DNA of 44,796 bases, from assembly GCA_025358155.1 (NCBI GenBank), contig JANYKR010000249.1, positions 1-44,796 on the forward strand, read 5' to 3'. This document shows positions 25,238 to 31,857 of the stretch, piece after piece (the first letter of the stretch is position 1; each line of letters starts with the position of its first letter). Origin of the DNA: Betaproteobacteria bacterium. Its GTDB lineage: Bacteria; Pseudomonadota; Gammaproteobacteria; Burkholderiales; Burkholderiaceae_C. A model generated the notes under the pieces. That model saw only the letters and a list, made by a program, of their open reading frames with translations, had not been told where the DNA came from and made no database searches. Made by a program: the position numbers and the translations under genes.

Positions 25238-25663
25238 TCACAGCCAACCGATGCAGTTGGCCGCGCCACAGCGGCAAGCCAGTGTGCCTTCGTGGTGGGT
25301 TTCGCCGTAATTCACCGTGATTTCTTCGCCCGGCACGATGGCGCGCAAGGCGTAGAACTCAATGCGCCCGCCCTGGATCGTCAGCCGTGTGTTCGGGCTG
25401 CAGCAGTGGTTCGTGAAGCGCATCGGGTCGCTGCTCTGTGAGGCGTCAATCGCCTTGCGGGCTGAAATCTCAACGATCATGATGCGTTGCCGGCCACTGG
25501 CCCGCGCCCTGGCCTCGGCCACGCTGATCGCCTCGCCGCGGATCTCGCCGATCTTGCGGTGCGCCGGTATCGGTTCGCCAGCAAACGCGCCAAAGCCGTC
25601 GATGCCGCTCTTGTGCACCGCAACCTCGAACTTCTGGTAGGCCGGCCGCTCGCCAGGCGTCAT
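25238..25663 (-). CDS. Bacterial SET-domain protein (possible lysine methyltransferase)
   Basis: A 141-residue protein that is essentially one SET domain. It shows SGIDGFGAFAGEPIPA at the start, the FTNHCCSPN segment (SET motif NHS.xPN, with C replacing S), GEEITVNYG and a post-SET-like Cys cluster ACRCGAANCIGWL. SET proteins transfer methyl from SAM to lysine. A bacterial target cannot be read from sequence. The start ATG overlaps the stop of the peroxiredoxin gene (ATGA), so it is translated with that exported antioxidant. No signal peptide is present, so it is cytoplasmic. Confidence 0.85.
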   Translation of the reverse strand: MTPGERPAYQKFEVAVHKSGIDGFGAFAGEPIPAHRKIGEIRGEAISVAEARARASGRQRIMIVEISARKAIDASQSSDPMRFTNHCCSPNTRLTIQGGRIEFYALRAIVPGEEITVNYGETHHEGTLACRCGAANCIGWL

Positions 25664-26238
25664 GGCTTCTTGGCGATCCAGGTCTTGAGTGCACTCAGCG
25701 TATTGGCCACGTGGCGCATCGGGTTCAGGCTGGTGAACTGGTAGACGATGGTGCCGTTGGGCGCGATGACGTAGGACGTGCGGTTGGCGTAGTCGGTCTT
25801 GTAGAACAGCACCGAGTCATACGACTTCATCACCGCCTGGTCGACATCGGCCGCCACCGCAAACTTGTTGCGGCACTCGGTGGTCGAGAAGCGCTTGAGC
25901 GTGTCGATGTCGTCGGCCGAGACACCGATCACGGTGGCGCCGAGCTGGTTGTACTGCTCGGTGGCTTCGGCAAACTCATGCGCTTCAATCGTGCAATCGC
26001 GCGAAAATGCGGCCGGGAAAAAGTACAGCACCACCGGGCCGCTCTTGAGCTTGTCGGCTAGCGAGAACTTGAACACATTGCCCGCCAGCGAGGCATCGAT
26101 GGAAAAGTGGGGCGCCTTGTCGCCCACATCGAGCGCGGCCTGGGCGCTGCCGCCTCCAGCCAACAGCGCACAGATCAACGCGCCGCTGCCGAGCAGGGCG
26201 CGGCCTCGGGCGGGTGCAAAAAAAGTTGATGGCGGCAT
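25660..26238 (-). CDS. Exported peroxiredoxin (AhpC/TSA, BCP-like)
   Basis: A 192-residue protein with a signal peptide (hydrophobic 14-30, cleavage near SAQAA, about residue 34) and a thioredoxin-fold peroxiredoxin domain. The peroxidatic cysteine is Cys82 in PAAFSRDCTIEAHEF, where the usual PxxxT/SxxC is kept with Ser. A possible resolving cysteine is Cys122 (TTECRNKF). It should reduce peroxides in the periplasm using a thiol donor. Start 26238 was chosen because AAGGA, a good ribosome-binding site, lies 8-12 bases upstream and because longer forms begin inside a tandem repeat. Its stop overlaps the SET gene. It is divergent from the phospholipase D gene. Confidence 0.9.
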   Translation of the reverse strand: MPPSTFFAPARGRALLGSGALICALLAGGGSAQAALDVGDKAPHFSIDASLAGNVFKFSLADKLKSGPVVLYFFPAAFSRDCTIEAHEFAEATEQYNQLGATVIGVSADDIDTLKRFSTTECRNKFAVAADVDQAVMKSYDSVLFYKTDYANRTSYVIAPNGTIVYQFTSLNPMRHVANTLSALKTWIAKKP

Positions 26239-26304
26239 TGCGTATCCTTCTTGCCCATGACATTCGATCGGGCCGGTTTGCAGACCACGACATTCAGCGG
26301 CGCC

Positions 26305-26391
26305 GGCACCCGGCATGATACGCAGGGGCACCCCTGGCAGATTACGCAGCGGCACCCCTCGCAGATTACGCAGCGTCACCCCTGGCAGATG
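26305..26391. repeat. 24-bp tandem repeat between peroxiredoxin and phospholipase D genes
   Basis: A unit of about 24 bases starting GCACCCCTGGCAGATTACGC is present at 26328-26351 and 26352-26375 (one mismatch), with a partial third copy at 26376-26390 and a degenerate copy at 26305-26327. It lies in the divergent promoter region. The period is a multiple of three, so the same DNA could be read as protein repeats (HPWQITQR) if the phospholipase gene starts upstream. Confidence 0.75.
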
Positions 26392-28056
26392 CCGCTCGGG
26401 TCATCCCCAGCGCCGCATTGCGGGCCGGCGCAAGCGGACGGGCAGCCGCACGGGCGTGCGCGGTGGCCGCTGGCCGCAGCCGCTGGGTGCTATGGCCTGC
26501 TGTCGGTTTTGATCTTGCTGGCGCTGCTGAGTGGCTGTGCCGGCCTGCCGCCCCAGGCGGCGCGGGCCTACAGCGCGGCCGAGCCGGGCTCCGTGCGTAC
26601 CACCCTGGGCCGCATCGCGGCCGACTCCTCGCCGGACGCTGCGCTGTCGGGTTTCAGGCTGCTGCCCATCGGCGCCTTTGCCATCGACACCCGGCTGACC
26701 CTGATCAAGCGCGCAGAACGATCGATCGACGTGCAGTACTACCTGATTGCCGACGACGAAACCGGCCGCTTCCTGCTGCGCAGCCTGCGTGATGCGGCGC
26801 TGCGCGGGGTGCGGGTGCGACTGCTGATGGATGATCTCTACACCGCCGGCAGCGACCCCTTGTTGCTCGGGCTGGCGAGCTACCCGAATGTCGAGATCCG
26901 GTTGTTCAATCCGTTTCCGGGCTGGCGTGATTCTCTGTTGACGCGCTTTGCCTACTCGGCACACGACTTCAGCCGGGTCAACCGGCGCATGCACAACAAG
27001 CTGCTGGTAGTAGACGGCGCCATGGCGGTGGCGGGTGGCCGCAACATCGCCAACGAGTACTTCATGCGCCATGCCCAGGCCAATTTTGTCGATCTCGATG
27101 CCTTTGTCACCGGCGCCCTGGTGCCCAAGATGCAGGCCTTGTTCGATGACTACTGGAACAGCCCGGTCGTGTTCCCCTTGCATGCCATCGTGCCGCCGGA
27201 GGACGATGTCGAAACTCGGCGCTTGCGCTTTGACAATGCCACCGCGCCATCTGTCACGCCACCGCCCGAGGCGCCGCCCAGTACTGACGTGCTGGGCTAC
27301 GGGCCTTTGTCCGACGAGCTCGATGCCGGTCGCCTGGGCCTGATCTGGGCCAGTGCAACCACCTACGCCGATCCCCCCAACCGCCTCAAGGGCATGGGCG
27401 CGAGCTACGGCCTGGTGCCGCTGCAGGATGTGGAGTCGGTGCGCTACAACGTGCTGGACCTGATCCGCAGCGCCAGCAAAGAGGTGGTGCTGACATCGCC
27501 CTACCTGATCCCGGGCGACCGCGGCATGGTCTTGTTTGCCGAGCAGCGCCGGCGGGGCGTCAAGTTCAAGGTGCTGACCAACTCGCTGGCCGCCACCGAC
27601 GAGCCCTTGGTGCATGTGGGCTACCGAAAATACCGCAAAGAAATGCTCAAGCTCGGCATCGATCTCTACGAGCTCAGCCCGGTGCGGGTGCAGCGCGCCA
27701 GCCGGCTCGGCATGTTTGCCAGCAGCCAGGGCCGGCTGCATGCCAAGACCGCCGTGATAGACCGGCGCCACATCTTCATCGGGTCGATGAACTTCGACCC
27801 GAGATCGGAGATTCACAACACCGAGATGGGCTTGTTCATCGACAGCCCGCCACTGGCGCGTGAAGCGCTGCGGCTGATGGACCTGGACAAGCTGCAGGCG
27901 TCTTATCGGCTGATGCTGGCGCCCGACGGCAGCCTGCGCTGGCTGGCGGCCGACGACGAGGGCGAGGTCAGCTTTGATGTCGAGCCCGACGCCAGCTTTG
28001 CCACCAAGTTCTGGCTGGAGTTGCTGGCGCCGCTGGCGCCCGAAGAGTTGCTCTGA
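26389..28056 (+). CDS. Phospholipase D-family lipoprotein, ClsC-like cardiolipin synthase
   Basis: About 555 residues. After a hydrophobic signal ending LLALLSGC (lipobox), the protein has two HKD motifs: MHNKLLVVDGAMAVAGG (His202) and LHAKTAVIDRRHIFIGSMNFDPRS (His451). This is the ClsC/YmdC-type phospholipase D arrangement, which makes cardiolipin from phosphatidylethanolamine and phosphatidylglycerol. The lipid anchor puts it at the periplasmic face of a membrane. The start is uncertain: ATG at 26389 keeps a normal intergenic space, whereas ATG 26257 or TTG 26251 would leave under 20 bases to the divergent peroxiredoxin and would translate the tandem repeat. No Shine-Dalgarno sequence supports any of them. 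It converges with the ASK-like gene. Confidence 0.88.
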   Translation: MPLGSSPAPHCGPAQADGQPHGRARWPLAAAAGCYGLLSVLILLALLSGCAGLPPQAARAYSAAEPGSVRTTLGRIAADSSPDAALSGFRLLPIGAFAIDTRLTLIKRAERSIDVQYYLIADDETGRFLLRSLRDAALRGVRVRLLMDDLYTAGSDPLLLGLASYPNVEIRLFNPFPGWRDSLLTRFAYSAHDFSRVNRRMHNKLLVVDGAMAVAGGRNIANEYFMRHAQANFVDLDAFVTGALVPKMQALFDDYWNSPVVFPLHAIVPPEDDVETRRLRFDNATAPSVTPPPEAPPSTDVLGYGPLSDELDAGRLGLIWASATTYADPPNRLKGMGASYGLVPLQDVESVRYNVLDLIRSASKEVVLTSPYLIPGDRGMVLFAEQRRRGVKFKVLTNSLAATDEPLVHVGYRKYRKEMLKLGIDLYELSPVRVQRASRLGMFASSQGRLHAKTAVIDRRHIFIGSMNFDPRSEIHNTEMGLFIDSPPLAREALRLMDLDKLQASYRLMLAPDGSLRWLAADDEGEVSFDVEPDASFATKFWLELLAPLAPEELL

Positions 28057-28082
28057 AGCCGGGGCCTGCGCCGCCCGGTCAG
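28053..28082. terminator. Hairpin spanning the convergent phospholipase D and ASK-like stops
   Basis: CTGA-AG-CCGGG (28053-28063) pairs with CCCGG-TCAG (28074-28082), with a 2-base bulge and a 10-base loop. Both stop codons sit in the arms, as in the hairpin at 17555-17590. No U-tract follows, so the efficiency as a terminator is unsure. Confidence 0.4.
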
Positions 28083-29728
28083 AAGTAGTCGATCTTGCAG
28101 GTCAGCTCGATGGACCGGATCTGCTTGCCCGGCGAAATGTCGGCATCGATGGTGATCGGGCGCCGACCGGCTGACGGGGCGGCACGGTTGGGGGGGGCAG
28201 TGGCCGGGCTGTGCGTGGCGGCGGCGTCAGAGACATCGACCGCGCTGGGATCGGCGCCGACTGCGGGTTGCGGGCTCAAATCCTCCGGCCGCACCTTTTG
28301 CCGGAATTGGTCGATCAGGTGCGCCAGCTTGGCCTTTTGCTCGCCGTAGGTGTGCTTGCCAAAGTCTGAGGCCACGCGGTCGATCTTGGCCTCCAGCCTG
28401 GCGCCGTCGTCAGTCTGGCCCAGGCCCTGGTAGGCCTCGGCCAGGCTCATCAAGACCCACTCCTGGTCGCCACGGCGGGCAAAGCCGGCTTCGTCCGCGA
28501 TCAGTTGTTCGCAGATGTCGGCCACCAGGCGGCGGATCAGGTTGGCATGGCCAAAGCTGACGATGGCGTCAAAGCGCTGGTCTTGCAGCAGCGCCCGCTG
28601 GTTGTACATGTACGCCACGTTGATGCCGTTGTAGTAATCCTGTTTGACGTAGAAGCCGCGCTCGTAGGCGTGGATGGCCCGGTTGAGGTAGGTCGCATCG
28701 CCGCTCAACTCGAACAGCCGCTTGTTGATCGCGCCTGAGAGGCCCAGCGTCTCGGGGCAAGTGGAAATCTTGGGTTCGCAATTTGCGGCCAAGATTTCTT
28801 CGGCCTCCAGCAGTGCCGCTATCGCCACCGGCTTGTCGATCTCGCCTTGGGCGTTTTTTTGTTCGCCGTTCTTGTAGGTCACCAGCGCCAGGCGTTGCGA
28901 CAGAAACAGGTCGGGTTTGCTGTCGGGCTTGCCTTGCGCCTGTTGGCGGATGGCTTGCTGAAACAGCTTGATTGCCTCACCAAAACGCTTGCCCTGTTTG
29001 GCCGCCTCCGCCGCGTCGATGATGCTGGCAAGGCTGAGGCCGGGCGCCACACCCACTGGCAGGCGCTCGGCGGGCGCCAGGTAGGCCGGTGGCTCGACGT
29101 AGCTCTGTGCGGTGTAGCTGGGCGGCGTCATGCCGGTCAGGTGCTTGAACACCGGGCTGTCCGATTCAGCCAGCACCTGAGGCGTGGTCTGCAGCCGCCG
29201 CTGCTCGATGGCGATGAGCTTGGCCAGCACCTCCGACAGGTGCGCGACAAAGCGCTCCTGCTCGGGCGCGCTGATGCTGTCGCCGCCGTGCTCGTACTTG
29301 TGCACCACAAACGAGCTCAGGTCAAACGGGATGCGCTGGATCAGCACCGACTCCGCAATGATCACCGTGGTGTTGGGCTTTTGGGCATGGCGCACGCCCA
29401 ACTCGTAGAACACGTTGGCGTTCAAGGTCGACAGATCGGCGATGACGATGTCGGCGTGGTAAATCCAGCGGTACATGATCGAGTCGATGCTGCCGGTCAG
29501 GTTGGCATCGATCGCCCGGAAGCAGTTGACGTTGACCTTGTCGCAAGCCGGCCGCACCAGTTGCTCGTAGGTCTTGTCCAGGTTGAGCACCCGCCCGGTC
29601 GAGTAATCGGTCTTGTTGCCAAAGCCGGTGACGACAAAACAGGTCAGCTGCCGATCAGGTGGCGGTGAGGGCTGGGTGGCCACGGGAGCCGCTGACGCCG
29701 ATTTTGTTCTGGCCTTGTTCATGTCCAT
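28079..29728 (-). CDS. TRAFs-binding (DUF4071)/TPR protein with N-terminal nucleoside deoxyribosyltransferase-like domain (ASK-like)
   Basis: A 549-residue cytoplasmic protein. Residues about 28-175 form a Rossmann-like domain: CFVVTGFGNKTD, then ADIVIADLST and NANVFYELGVRHA with Glu109 in the place of the catalytic Glu of nucleoside 2-deoxyribosyltransferases and TIR-like NAD-processing enzymes. Residues about 235-465 are helical TPR-like repeats with GLSGAINKRLFELSGDATYL and YERGFYVKQDYYNGIN, the hallmark of the MAP3K TRAFs-binding domain. Animal ASK1 kinases combine the same regions before their kinase domain. Here there is no kinase; a Pro/Ala linker leads to a short charged tail ending CKIDYF. 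It is probably a stress-signalling or nucleotide-cleaving protein, but no function is proved. The start has a good AGAGGA ribosome-binding site 5 bases upstream. Confidence 0.83.
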   Translation of the reverse strand: MDMNKARTKSASAAPVATQPSPPPDRQLTCFVVTGFGNKTDYSTGRVLNLDKTYEQLVRPACDKVNVNCFRAIDANLTGSIDSIMYRWIYHADIVIADLSTLNANVFYELGVRHAQKPNTTVIIAESVLIQRIPFDLSSFVVHKYEHGGDSISAPEQERFVAHLSEVLAKLIAIEQRRLQTTPQVLAESDSPVFKHLTGMTPPSYTAQSYVEPPAYLAPAERLPVGVAPGLSLASIIDAAEAAKQGKRFGEAIKLFQQAIRQQAQGKPDSKPDLFLSQRLALVTYKNGEQKNAQGEIDKPVAIAALLEAEEILAANCEPKISTCPETLGLSGAINKRLFELSGDATYLNRAIHAYERGFYVKQDYYNGINVAYMYNQRALLQDQRFDAIVSFGHANLIRRLVADICEQLIADEAGFARRGDQEWVLMSLAEAYQGLGQTDDGARLEAKIDRVASDFGKHTYGEQKAKLAHLIDQFRQKVRPEDLSPQPAVGADPSAVDVSDAAATHSPATAPPNRAAPSAGRRPITIDADISPGKQIRSIELTCKIDYF

Positions 29729-29749
29729 CCTCTATGGAGTTTGGCGGCG

Positions 29750-29779
29750 ATCATGCGTCAGCCCGCCGTTGCTGGTCAA
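29750..29779 (-). promoter_or_regulatory. Possible sigma-70 promoter for the ASK-like gene
   Basis: Read on the minus strand, TTGACC (29779-29774) lies 18 bases before CATGAT (29755-29750). These match the -35 and -10 consensus at five and four of six bases. The leader to the ATG at 29728 would be short, about 15 bases, and would still contain the AGAGGA ribosome-binding site. The rest of the 140-base gap to the MFS stop holds nothing recognisable. Confidence 0.3.
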
Positions 29780-29868
29780 TTGCGTTGGGTAGGTGGCGCC
29801 GTCCCAGCCCATCACTGTGCCGTGAAAGAGCCGTAACGCGCAGCCGTACCGCCAGCTAGACCCACCGA

Positions 29869-31206
29869 TCAGTCTGAGTTGGTACCAGCACCGGCACCGG
29901 CACCGACACCAGCCCCGACATCGATCCGCCAACCGCCCTCAGCCCACCAAGCCCCCAACCCCAACAACACCCCCAGCGCTGCCGCCCCGGCCGTCACCCA
30001 CCGCGCGGCACCCCACGCGCCACTGGCCGCCACCACAGCCGCTATCAGCGGCGTGCCGATGAACTGGCCGAGCTGTGACCCCTGCATGAACAGGCCTTGC
30101 AGCGCGCTGACCTGGCGCGGGCTGCGGGCCAGCGCGGCCGAGCTTGACATCACCGCTGCCGGGATCACACCGCCGATGAACGACAGCGCCACGCACAGCG
30201 CGTAGCGCAGGCCGTCGGGCAGGGCGTCTGAGAACAGGCCCAGGCCGCACAGCCCGGTCAGGCTGTGGGCGGCGGCGATCAGCCGGCCGCGCGACATGCC
30301 GCGCTGCACCAGCCCGCCGCCGATCAGGTTGCCCGGCACGTTGGCCAGCAGCATGGTGCAGCAGAGCAGGGCGACCCAGCCGGGGGAGTAGCCGCGTTGC
30401 TCTTTCAAGAAGGTGGGCAGCCAGACGATCAGCGCAAAGTGCTGCAATGCCCAGACCCCGAAGGCCAGCGCCAGCAACCAGGGCAAGGGCTGGCGCAGCA
30501 CTGCCAGCGTAGGCCCGGTGGCTGCCGCGTGGCTGGACCCGCCCGCTGGGCGGTAGTGCAGCCGCTGCGACCAGGCCGCTGCGGCCGCCAGCAGCAGTAC
30601 TGCGGCGGCTGCGACCCACAGCCCGCGCCAACCGGCTGCAGGCAGCAGCAGCGGCGCCAATGCCATGGCCAGGCCCGCGCCCGTGGGCATGTAGCTGCTC
30701 CACACGCCCAGCGCAAAGCGCCGATCGCCTGCAGCGGTGGCGGCGCTGATCATGGACGGGCCCGACACCGCCACCGCCAGAAAACCCGCACCCTCGAAAA
30801 AACGGGTGGCGATGAGCAGGCCAAAACCCCAGCCGGGCGCATCGACGCTGGCCATCAGGCCGCCAGCGCCGTGCACCGCCAGCGCAACCAGCGACGCTGC
30901 CGCGCTCAGGCCCAAGCCGCCCAGCACCATGGGCAGCGCGCCGATCCGACCGGCCAGCAAGCCAAAGCCCAGCGCGGCCACCACCGCCAGCGTGCTCAGC
31001 ACCGACGACACCCAGCCGGCCTGCACCAGGCTCAGGCCCAGCTCTGTGCGTAGCAGCGGCAGCGCCAGCGGCACCTTGCCCACATTCATCGCAATCGCCA
31101 CGCCGGCCAGCGCAGCAGCCAGCACGGCGGGCCAGTGGGTCAGCCCCGTTGCGCCGGCTGTCGGCCTTTGCCCGGTGCCGGCCAGCGGTGCAGGGGCGCC
31201 GGCCAT
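29869..31206 (-). CDS. MFS transporter (CynX/NimT-like)
   Basis: A 445-residue membrane protein with about 12 hydrophobic helices. An MFS motif-A-like loop follows helix 2 (LLAGRIGALPMVL), and FFEGAGFLAVAVSGPSMISAA is in the fourth to fifth helix region. The general look is that of the cyanate/NimT group of MFS exporters and importers; the substrate is not evident. The C-terminus is a Gly-Ala-Val tail built from ACCGGC-type simple repeats (29883-29918). The start ATG shares one base with the queF stop (TAATG), so it is translated after queF. This suggests a link to queuosine or deazaguanine metabolism or simply operon economy. Confidence 0.87.
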   Translation of the reverse strand: MAGAPAPLAGTGQRPTAGATGLTHWPAVLAAALAGVAIAMNVGKVPLALPLLRTELGLSLVQAGWVSSVLSTLAVVAALGFGLLAGRIGALPMVLGGLGLSAAASLVALAVHGAGGLMASVDAPGWGFGLLIATRFFEGAGFLAVAVSGPSMISAATAAGDRRFALGVWSSYMPTGAGLAMALAPLLLPAAGWRGLWVAAAAVLLLAAAAAWSQRLHYRPAGGSSHAAATGPTLAVLRQPLPWLLALAFGVWALQHFALIVWLPTFLKEQRGYSPGWVALLCCTMLLANVPGNLIGGGLVQRGMSRGRLIAAAHSLTGLCGLGLFSDALPDGLRYALCVALSFIGGVIPAAVMSSSAALARSPRQVSALQGLFMQGSQLGQFIGTPLIAAVVAASGAWGAARWVTAGAAALGVLLGLGAWWAEGGWRIDVGAGVGAGAGAGTNSD

Positions 31207-31688
31207 TAGCCCAGCAGCCCGCGCTCCATCGGCATTGCAGGCAGCTCGACGGTGGGCTGGGGCTGCCAGCCGGGCTTGCGCTGCTCGGCGACCACGTTGG
31301 TGTAGATGCCGCCGCGCACGTACCACTTGGCGGTGATGCGGATGAACCGCGGCTGGATGGCTTGAACGATGTCGTCGAGGATGGTGTTGGTCACCGCCTC
31401 GTGGAAGGCCCCCTCGTTGCGGTAGCTCCAGAAGTACATCTTCAGGCTCTTGAGCTCGATGCACAGCGCATCGGCGATCACGTCGATGCTGAAGTGGGCA
31501 AAGTCGGGCTGGCCCGTCAACGGGCAATGGCAGGTGAACTCGGGCACCTGGAACTGGATCAGGTAGTCGCGGTCGGGTGCCGGGTTGGGGAACACCTGCA
31601 AGTCTTTGGACGGCACGCTCGGCGGGGTGGCCGGCGAGGGCCGCTCGTTGAGTGCGGGCGGCGCGGCTCGGGTGGCTTTCTTGGCCAT
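31206..31688 (-). CDS. queF: NADPH-dependent 7-cyano-7-deazaguanine reductase QueF (short type)
   Basis: A 160-residue protein of the single-domain (Bacillus YkvM-like) QueF class. [16 protein letters not shown] contains the catalytic Cys55 that forms a thioimide with preQ0, and Asp62. [20 protein letters not shown] (split as [16 protein letters not shown]) is the QueF family signature binding NADPH and substrate. It reduces preQ0 to preQ1 for queuosine in tRNA. The first 25 or so residues are a low-complexity Pro/Ala extension. The start at 31688 (MAKKATR) was taken as the first ATG before the conserved part. It is divergent from smc, with a 169-base gap in which I see no supported promoter. 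Confidence 0.94.
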
Positions 31689-31857
31689 GGCGTTGGGGCC
31701 GGCGGCAGCGCCGCAAGCGTCAGTCTGAGAGGGCCGCGATGGTATCATCGGGCTTGTTGCGCTTGTGGCGCGGCAAGCAATAAAGCCATACAAATCAAAC
31801 ACTTGCAGCGTCTGGCCCAGGGGCTGGCGGCGCTGCGGGCCCAGGGCCCCACCGCGC

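Follow-up and report, generated by a model that had tools for sequence, protein, structure and literature searches.

An ASK1-like two-domain protein without a kinase in a betaproteobacterium, and its possible place in TIR-linked immunity

The window analysed here, a stretch of 44,796 nucleotides from a Betaproteobacteria bacterium (GCA_025358155.1, contig JANYKR010000249.1), encodes a 549-residue protein in which a DRHyd/TIR-like domain is followed by a TPR-S domain, as in the front end of the human stress kinase ASK1 (MAP3K5). Because many of its homologues lie beside TIR, SLATT or patatin genes, phage defence is indicated rather than oxidative stress, and we consider it somewhat more probable than not that the protein belongs, as sensor or effector, to a bacterial immune family that is TIR-linked (Thoeris-like); an immune signalling protein is in any case more likely than an oxidative-stress sensor. 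The TPR-S family is already known in Pfam, RefSeq names many of its members 'TRAFs-binding domain-containing protein', and part of PMC8195603 reports that components of the ASK signalosome originate in bacterial conflict systems. As far as the open-licence literature was searched, the new elements are an orphan branch of the family with a conserved C-terminal tail, a SLATT-fused sister of that branch and a site in a related genome that is empty of the gene. A histidine in ASK1 at the position of the presumed catalytic glutamate is also new within that literature, and may already be published.

Domain organisation and comparison with ASK1

The gene lies on the minus strand at 28079-29728 (coding 28082-29728 plus the stop codon), and its reading frame, proposed in the original prediction, is real. 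The motifs picked out there fall at residues 92-101 (ADIVIADLST) and 103-111 (NANVFYELG), the glutamate of the latter being Glu109 (codon 29402-29404, minus strand), and the TRAFs-binding segment YERGFYVKQDYYNGIN occupies residues 355-370. Against the orthologue in genome G011, dN/dS is approximately 0.15 for the N-terminal domain and 0.32 for the TPR part, so that this looks like a working gene. An NCBIfam search of the 549-residue protein returned no family above its cut-off. The AlphaFold2 model of the whole protein, built with 16 sequences, has a pLDDT of 77.7 and is weak in the linker and tail.

The N-terminal part is predicted to form an alpha/beta domain of five main strands at residues 28-181 (29186-29647, minus strand), which when modelled alone has a pLDDT of 83.5 and a pTM of 0.83. 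The closest Foldseek matches to this model are TIR-STING chains (E 5e-4) and the CMP glycosidase MilB (7e-4), followed by the retron Ec86 effector (1.7e-3) and DNPH1 (4.6e-3), with receiver domains, GTPases and other Rossmann-like proteins ranked among them; in a viral structure library a CMP/hydroxymethyl-CMP hydrolase comes first (E 3.6e-7) and a CAP12-type TIR protein next. Over the first 180 residues no Pfam model exceeds its cut-off (only KHA is listed, E 0.017), and neither the Pfam TIR models nor Nuc_deoxyrib_tr (PF05014) match the protein up to E 1; the PADLOC 'Effector, TIR' profile matches residues 78-168 (E 1.6e-6), and one relative (L038) matches PF05014 under the cut-off (E 0.0081). 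Among phage records there are 32 matches, 16 of them from Streptococcus and 14 from Staphylococcus phages, none covering more than 80% of the query, and the 20 listed involve the N-terminal domain only.

The profile of the N-terminal domain also matches eleven distinct Rcl/DNPH1 sequences (E 4.4e-4 to 4.9e-3), aligning YELG with YELG and placing Glu109 on the Rcl/DNPH1 glutamate, which we take to be the nucleophile of those enzymes. The acidic residue at position 109 was expected to be kept among homologues, and it is present in 29 of 29 full-length sequences, as well as in 14 of 14 aligned homologues and in 16 of 16 members of a wider set that includes stand-alone domains from virus contigs. 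Equally invariant in the 29 are G35, G37, K39, D82, D98, N103, N105 and R113. The protein thus shares both fold and YELG glutamate with DRHyd/nucleoside deoxyribosyltransferase-like enzymes, and its N-terminal domain resembles in fold DNPH1/Rcl, MilB, the TIR domain of TIR-STING and the retron Ec86 effector, none of which is known to have a TPR-S part. However, the Rcl aspartate, presumably at position 69, is not kept: its place is taken by Met85 in all 29 full-length homologues, with Asp82 near, and glycosidase activity of the Rcl type is therefore not assured. TIR, DrHyd and SLOG domains are grouped as binders or processors of nucleotides, including NAD, in a section of PMC9503650.

The TPR-S domain is recognised by Pfam (PF20308) at residues 249-374 (28607-28984) with an E-value of 4.9e-19 and 69.2 bits against a cut-off of 27.6. 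MAP3K_TRAF_bd (PF13281) also exceeds its cut-off (E 1.5e-6, 28.0 bits against 24.1), through just profile positions 197-262 of 371. In the AlphaFold2 model a TPR solenoid spans residues 233-478 (28295-29032, minus strand), so that structure prediction and fold search together bear out both the DRHyd/TIR-like core and the solenoid that had been anticipated. Seven residues of this part, K286, E326, T327, K336, Y366, G368 and N370, are present in 29 of 29 full-length homologues, a pattern of conservation that suits a putative ligand pocket.

The proposal of an ASK1-like two-domain front end without the kinase is supported by Pfam, Foldseek and hhalign. When the whole model is compared with the PDB by Foldseek, human ASK1 ranks third (8qgy_A, E 8e-5, 466 alignment columns) and its chain B nineteenth (473 columns), while none of the other 48 matches listed, all of them TPR-type proteins, exceeds 348 columns; the whole-chain TM-score of the ASK1 match is low, at 0.33. 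ASK1 is thus the only protein among the matches listed whose alignment to the predicted model is long enough for both domains, and since the modelled solenoid accounts for only about 246 residues, the N-terminal domain should be included. With the N-terminal domain alone as query, ASK1 is absent among the best 50 PDB matches. In hhalign comparisons, made with an ASK1 stretch that agrees with the PDB sequence except for one letter and giving E-values that are single-pair values, NPNVFYELGVRHA of the family aligns with QPSLFYHLGVRES of ASK1 and the GAI.KR...GIN.A region with GRIYKDMF...SGINYA, so that the FYxLGVR and GIN motifs correspond. None of 200 shuffled ASK1 controls did as well for the N-terminal domain and none of 200 for the TPR part; the whole-family profile (A1) aligns weakly (E 0.006), with 2 of 200 shuffles as good.

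ASK1 and the window protein have in common the order of an alpha/beta domain followed by a TPR solenoid, but ASK1 continues into a PH domain and a kinase (the cryo-EM paper gives the order thioredoxin-binding domain or TBD, TPR, PH, kinase; PMC10972558), whereas Pfam finds neither kinase nor PH domain in the window protein and the reading frame stops after a short tail. The region beyond the solenoid had been described as a disordered linker and a short tail. The first of these stands, in that a variable Pro/Ala-rich linker occupies residues 479-521 (28166-28294, minus strand) and residues 492-524 are of low confidence in the AlphaFold2 model, but the tail is more than disorder. Residues from about 522 to the end of the protein at 549 (28082-28165, minus strand) are conserved in the window protein and in all four of its orthologues, with a common pattern around V+S.E..C+I+Y. 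A search of nine genomes recovered the five copies of the tail only, plus one chance-level match, and dN/dS within it ranges from about 0.23 to more than 1, depending on the pair compared.

A relative in genome G313 is 66% identical over residues 10-529 and is a DRHyd-TPR-S-SLATT protein, SLATT being DUF4231. The tail is absent from it, and the SLATT domain begins at the tail's position. Twenty-eight nucleotides upstream is a patatin gene whose product matches the PADLOC 'Effector, Phospholipase' models (best E 1.4e-46). The tail-bearing proteins and the G313 protein form one clade (support 100/100), and the tree leaves undecided whether G313 falls outside the tail-bearing branch (88/61). The window protein and this relative therefore share a clade but differ at the C-terminus, where the one has a conserved tail and the other a two-transmembrane (2TM) SLATT domain, with a patatin gene upstream.

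These C-terminal arrangements bear on whether the N-terminal domain acts as an enzyme. It could instead be an inert scaffold, as in ASK1, with the protein doing no more than passing a signal on to a partner by way of its tail, in line with the histidine that hhalign places in ASK1 at the position of Glu109, the loss of the Rcl aspartate to Met85 and the C-terminal location of the G313 SLATT output, which parallels that of the ASK1 kinase. We regard this as unlikely, though the strongest of the four rival readings, because the N-terminal domain is the most constrained part of the protein in the comparison with G011, Glu109 and other polar residues are invariant, and 9 of the 14 aligned homologues stop after the TPR part and have no output domain.

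The window locus and distribution of the family

The genes around the locus are those originally described: a peroxiredoxin (25660-26379, minus strand; AhpC/TSA, E 8e-25) with a signal peptide judged by eye, and a cardiolipin-synthase-like protein with two PLDc domains (26251-28056, plus strand) and a lipobox likewise judged by eye. They were said not to share an operon with the window gene, and the PLD gene is indeed convergent with it. On the other side is a long reading frame for an MFS transporter (29869-31716, minus strand), in which the MFS match starts at residue 202. There are four PLD-family genes in this genome, at 26251-28056 in the window and on contigs C232, C265 and C218.

By comparison with related genomes these neighbours are residents of the region, and the peroxiredoxin and PLD genes lie outside the system to which the window gene belongs. 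The ends of the MFS and PLD matches are separated by 44 bp in G004 and by 188 bp in G012, and neither interval contains a gene; the homologous gene of G012 is on another contig, and the gene caller placed a different ORF across this genome's PLD gene. In G003 PLD and SMC genes are present, but other ORFs occupy the corresponding stretch, and in G011 PLD was seen there with no MFS match. Because PLD and MFS abut in G004, the window gene probably arrived as an insert shorter than 1.9 kb, if it was not lost twice; the sequence that G004 lacks extends at most from 28053 to 29950, limits that include the end of the MFS gene (29869-29950). The GC3 of the gene (0.84) is like that of its neighbours (0.84-0.87), so that base composition gives no sign of recent foreign origin. 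The four tail-bearing orthologues have other genes alongside, namely WS/DGAT and MatE in G011, EutBC in G012, an FtsX/MacB permease in G002, and TPR and TctC proteins in G009.

The original prediction had proposed a free-standing sensor of oxidative or membrane stress, working with the adjacent peroxiredoxin and PLD lipoprotein. The attractions of this are that ASK1, with the same two-domain order, answers oxidative stress through thioredoxin (as part of PMC10972558 describes) and that the peroxiredoxin gene is only 1.7 kb away. However, the peroxiredoxin, PLD and MFS genes form a resident block that is present without the gene in G004 and G012, the four orthologues have different neighbours, the PLD gene is in a separate operon and many homologues accompany TIR, SLATT or patatin genes. 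The stress role drawn from the neighbours is thus unsupported, and we consider it improbable.

The family is distributed sparsely. With a threshold of E 1e-60, 8 of the 21 genus genomes have the full module; full-length copies occur in 4 of 369 genomes of the class (7 with any match at 1e-40) and in 3 of 398 genomes of the phylum, own genome included in each, and the tail-bearing branch is patchy, in 5 of the 21 genus genomes. A DNA search of E. coli genomes gave no match. Sixty-one plasmid records match, and a search of viral sequences with an alignment found 18 loci; the same search with a single protein found nothing, and those with the TPR part or the N-terminal domain alone added no further contig.

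TIR genes beside the homologues

The neighbourhoods of homologues point to phage defence. With TIR search models built in part from these very genes, and with some flanks short and ended by contig ends, a TIR gene was found within 150 nt of the homologue in 17 of 31 full-length loci, rows that are not independent, several plasmid ones being near copies. These fall unevenly on the tree, at 1 of 13 loci on the window's side, where the TIR gene is convergent, versus 16 of 18 elsewhere (Fisher 7.6e-6; L117 and L124, which the tree lacks, were assigned by kinship). The distances at L051 and L119 rest on the longest ORF, and if annotated starts are used these gaps become 364 and 267 nt and the counts 15 of 31 overall and 14 of 18 elsewhere (p 1.7e-4). 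At the five tail-bearing loci the available flank out to 5 kb contains no TIR gene; two of these loci are in genomes (G002 and G011) that are 86% and 82% complete.

All 12 TIR-like neighbour proteins examined with Pfam, whose models owe nothing to these genes as search models, exceed a TIR cut-off. Nine match ThsB_TIR (one each in L047, L050, L037, L114 and L123, and two each in L048 and L115), that of L114 being 4 kb away from the homologue, and three match TIR_2 (the third of L048, and those of L051 and L122); PADLOC identifies the Pseudomonas TIR neighbour as ThsB. SLATT genes lie within 5 kb in seven of the 31 loci. On a Rhizobium plasmid TRAFs-binding, DUF4231 and TIR genes are consecutive, a viral contig carries TPR-S, TIR and SLATT together, and in G348 a TPR-S-patatin fusion (L113:4556-7156) is beside a DRHyd-TPR-S gene.

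Several smaller features were seen in these loci. A gene that appears SLOG-like by eye is on the opposite side of the DRHyd-TPR-S locus in G348, and small PGDYG-like proteins, under the cut-off, occur near two homologues of different branches (L046:7519-7914 and L111:9452-9835, the latter in the locus of the G313 relative). About 2 kb upstream in L046 is an ORF that resembles TIR-WD40 by eye, and the plasmid record carries a 102-base 'GIM-2 beta-lactamase' prediction (L046:9372-9473) that is probably spurious.

The plasmid TRAFs-binding/TPR-S (PF20308) proteins beside TIR genes share with the window protein both domains, their order, Glu109 and the TPR-S residues, the best matches being approximately 33-36% identical. 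Seventeen of the 61 matching plasmid records, picked for diversity, were examined, two of them outside the 31-locus count; the aligned proteins stop after the TPR part and most of those examined have an adjacent TIR gene, whereas in the window protein a linker and conserved tail follow, and its gene has no TIR gene alongside. The likeness to Thoeris is similarly partial. ThsB-type TIR genes adjoin many homologues, but there is none within 5 kb in the window locus, and Pfam finds in the window protein none of the Thoeris effector domains listed in part of PMC12847820 (SIR2, macro as TM-macro, and caspase-like).

The lack of a partner alongside, the scattered occurrence in the genus (5 of 21) and the different genes beside each copy would also fit an orphan relic, brought in on a defence cassette, then left without its TIR partner and now a decoy, a regulator or a decaying part. 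This is again improbable, since the gene is intact in five genomes, its domains are under purifying selection and the tail is common to all copies. A nucleotide-salvage or house-cleaning glycosidase of the DNPH1/MilB type, regulated by its TPR part and unrelated to defence, would account for the fold and motif matches but is very improbable given its rare and patchy distribution and the relatives on plasmids and beside TIR genes.

A possible signalling pathway and a TIR partner in trans

For the favoured reading, a protein of a TIR-linked immune family, we infer the signal, cleavage and output steps on the model of Thoeris, whose effector is activated by an NAD derivative that a TIR enzyme produces (as stated in a portion of PMC12847820). 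A TIR enzyme would sense infection and make an NAD-derived signal, and the TPR-S domain would bind it. Binding would then switch on the N-terminal domain, which would cleave NAD or a nucleotide by means of Glu109, and/or a C-terminal output, which would be SLATT in the G313 relative and the kinase in ASK1; in the window protein the conserved tail may dock a partner in trans. As the window branch has no TIR gene next to it, the signal would have to come from a TIR protein elsewhere in the genome.

Candidates for such a protein were sought in the genomes. No ThsB-type TIR was found in those of the five tail-bearing loci, own genome included, and among eight genomes examined only G015 has one, while TIR_2 genes are present in every one of the eight. 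For a TIR protein of approximately 466-470 residues, an orthologue is present in 8 of the 21 genus genomes, comprising 5 of 5 with the tail versus 3 of 16 others (p 0.003, kinship ignored), a co-occurrence that we treat as a lead only. In the own genome the 466-residue TIR is followed by nSTAND1, as called by Pfam (L159:2581-5998, contig C126). nSTAND1 also follows the orthologous TIR in G009 and G012, by eye, and was not called after it in the G002 and G011 stretches; SLATT matches closely precede the TIR gene in G011, G002 and G009.

A more specific scheme, doubtful as a whole but slightly better placed than the inert scaffold, is that the tail-bearing branch is a receptor acting in trans with the TIR of about 470 residues, that its tail recruits an unfused effector in place of the fused SLATT domain of the G313 relative or the kinase of ASK1, and that ASK1 descends from this module, with a kinase swapped in and the catalytic glutamate lost. 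If the favoured reading is true, the front end of a human stress kinase survives in a bacterial immune receptor, with both domains present and the presumed catalytic residue intact, and the chemistry and ligand that the ASK module had ancestrally would be directly measurable. The plasmid-borne pairs of TIR and DRHyd-TPR-S genes would likewise be a Thoeris-like type of defence, with SLATT or patatin as further outputs.

Two other proteins of the own genome have related domains; a search there for DUF4062 (PF13271) found none. One, of 666 residues (L044:3018-5018, contig C127), is a second TPR-S protein, with an NPNVWYELG domain ahead of the TPR-S part and a long C-terminal region, SLOG-like by eye; its relative L040 matches YAcAr under the cut-off. 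The other (L158:2398-4449, contig C86) joins a prokaryotic TRPM-type SLOG domain (LSDAT_prok) to SLATT domains.
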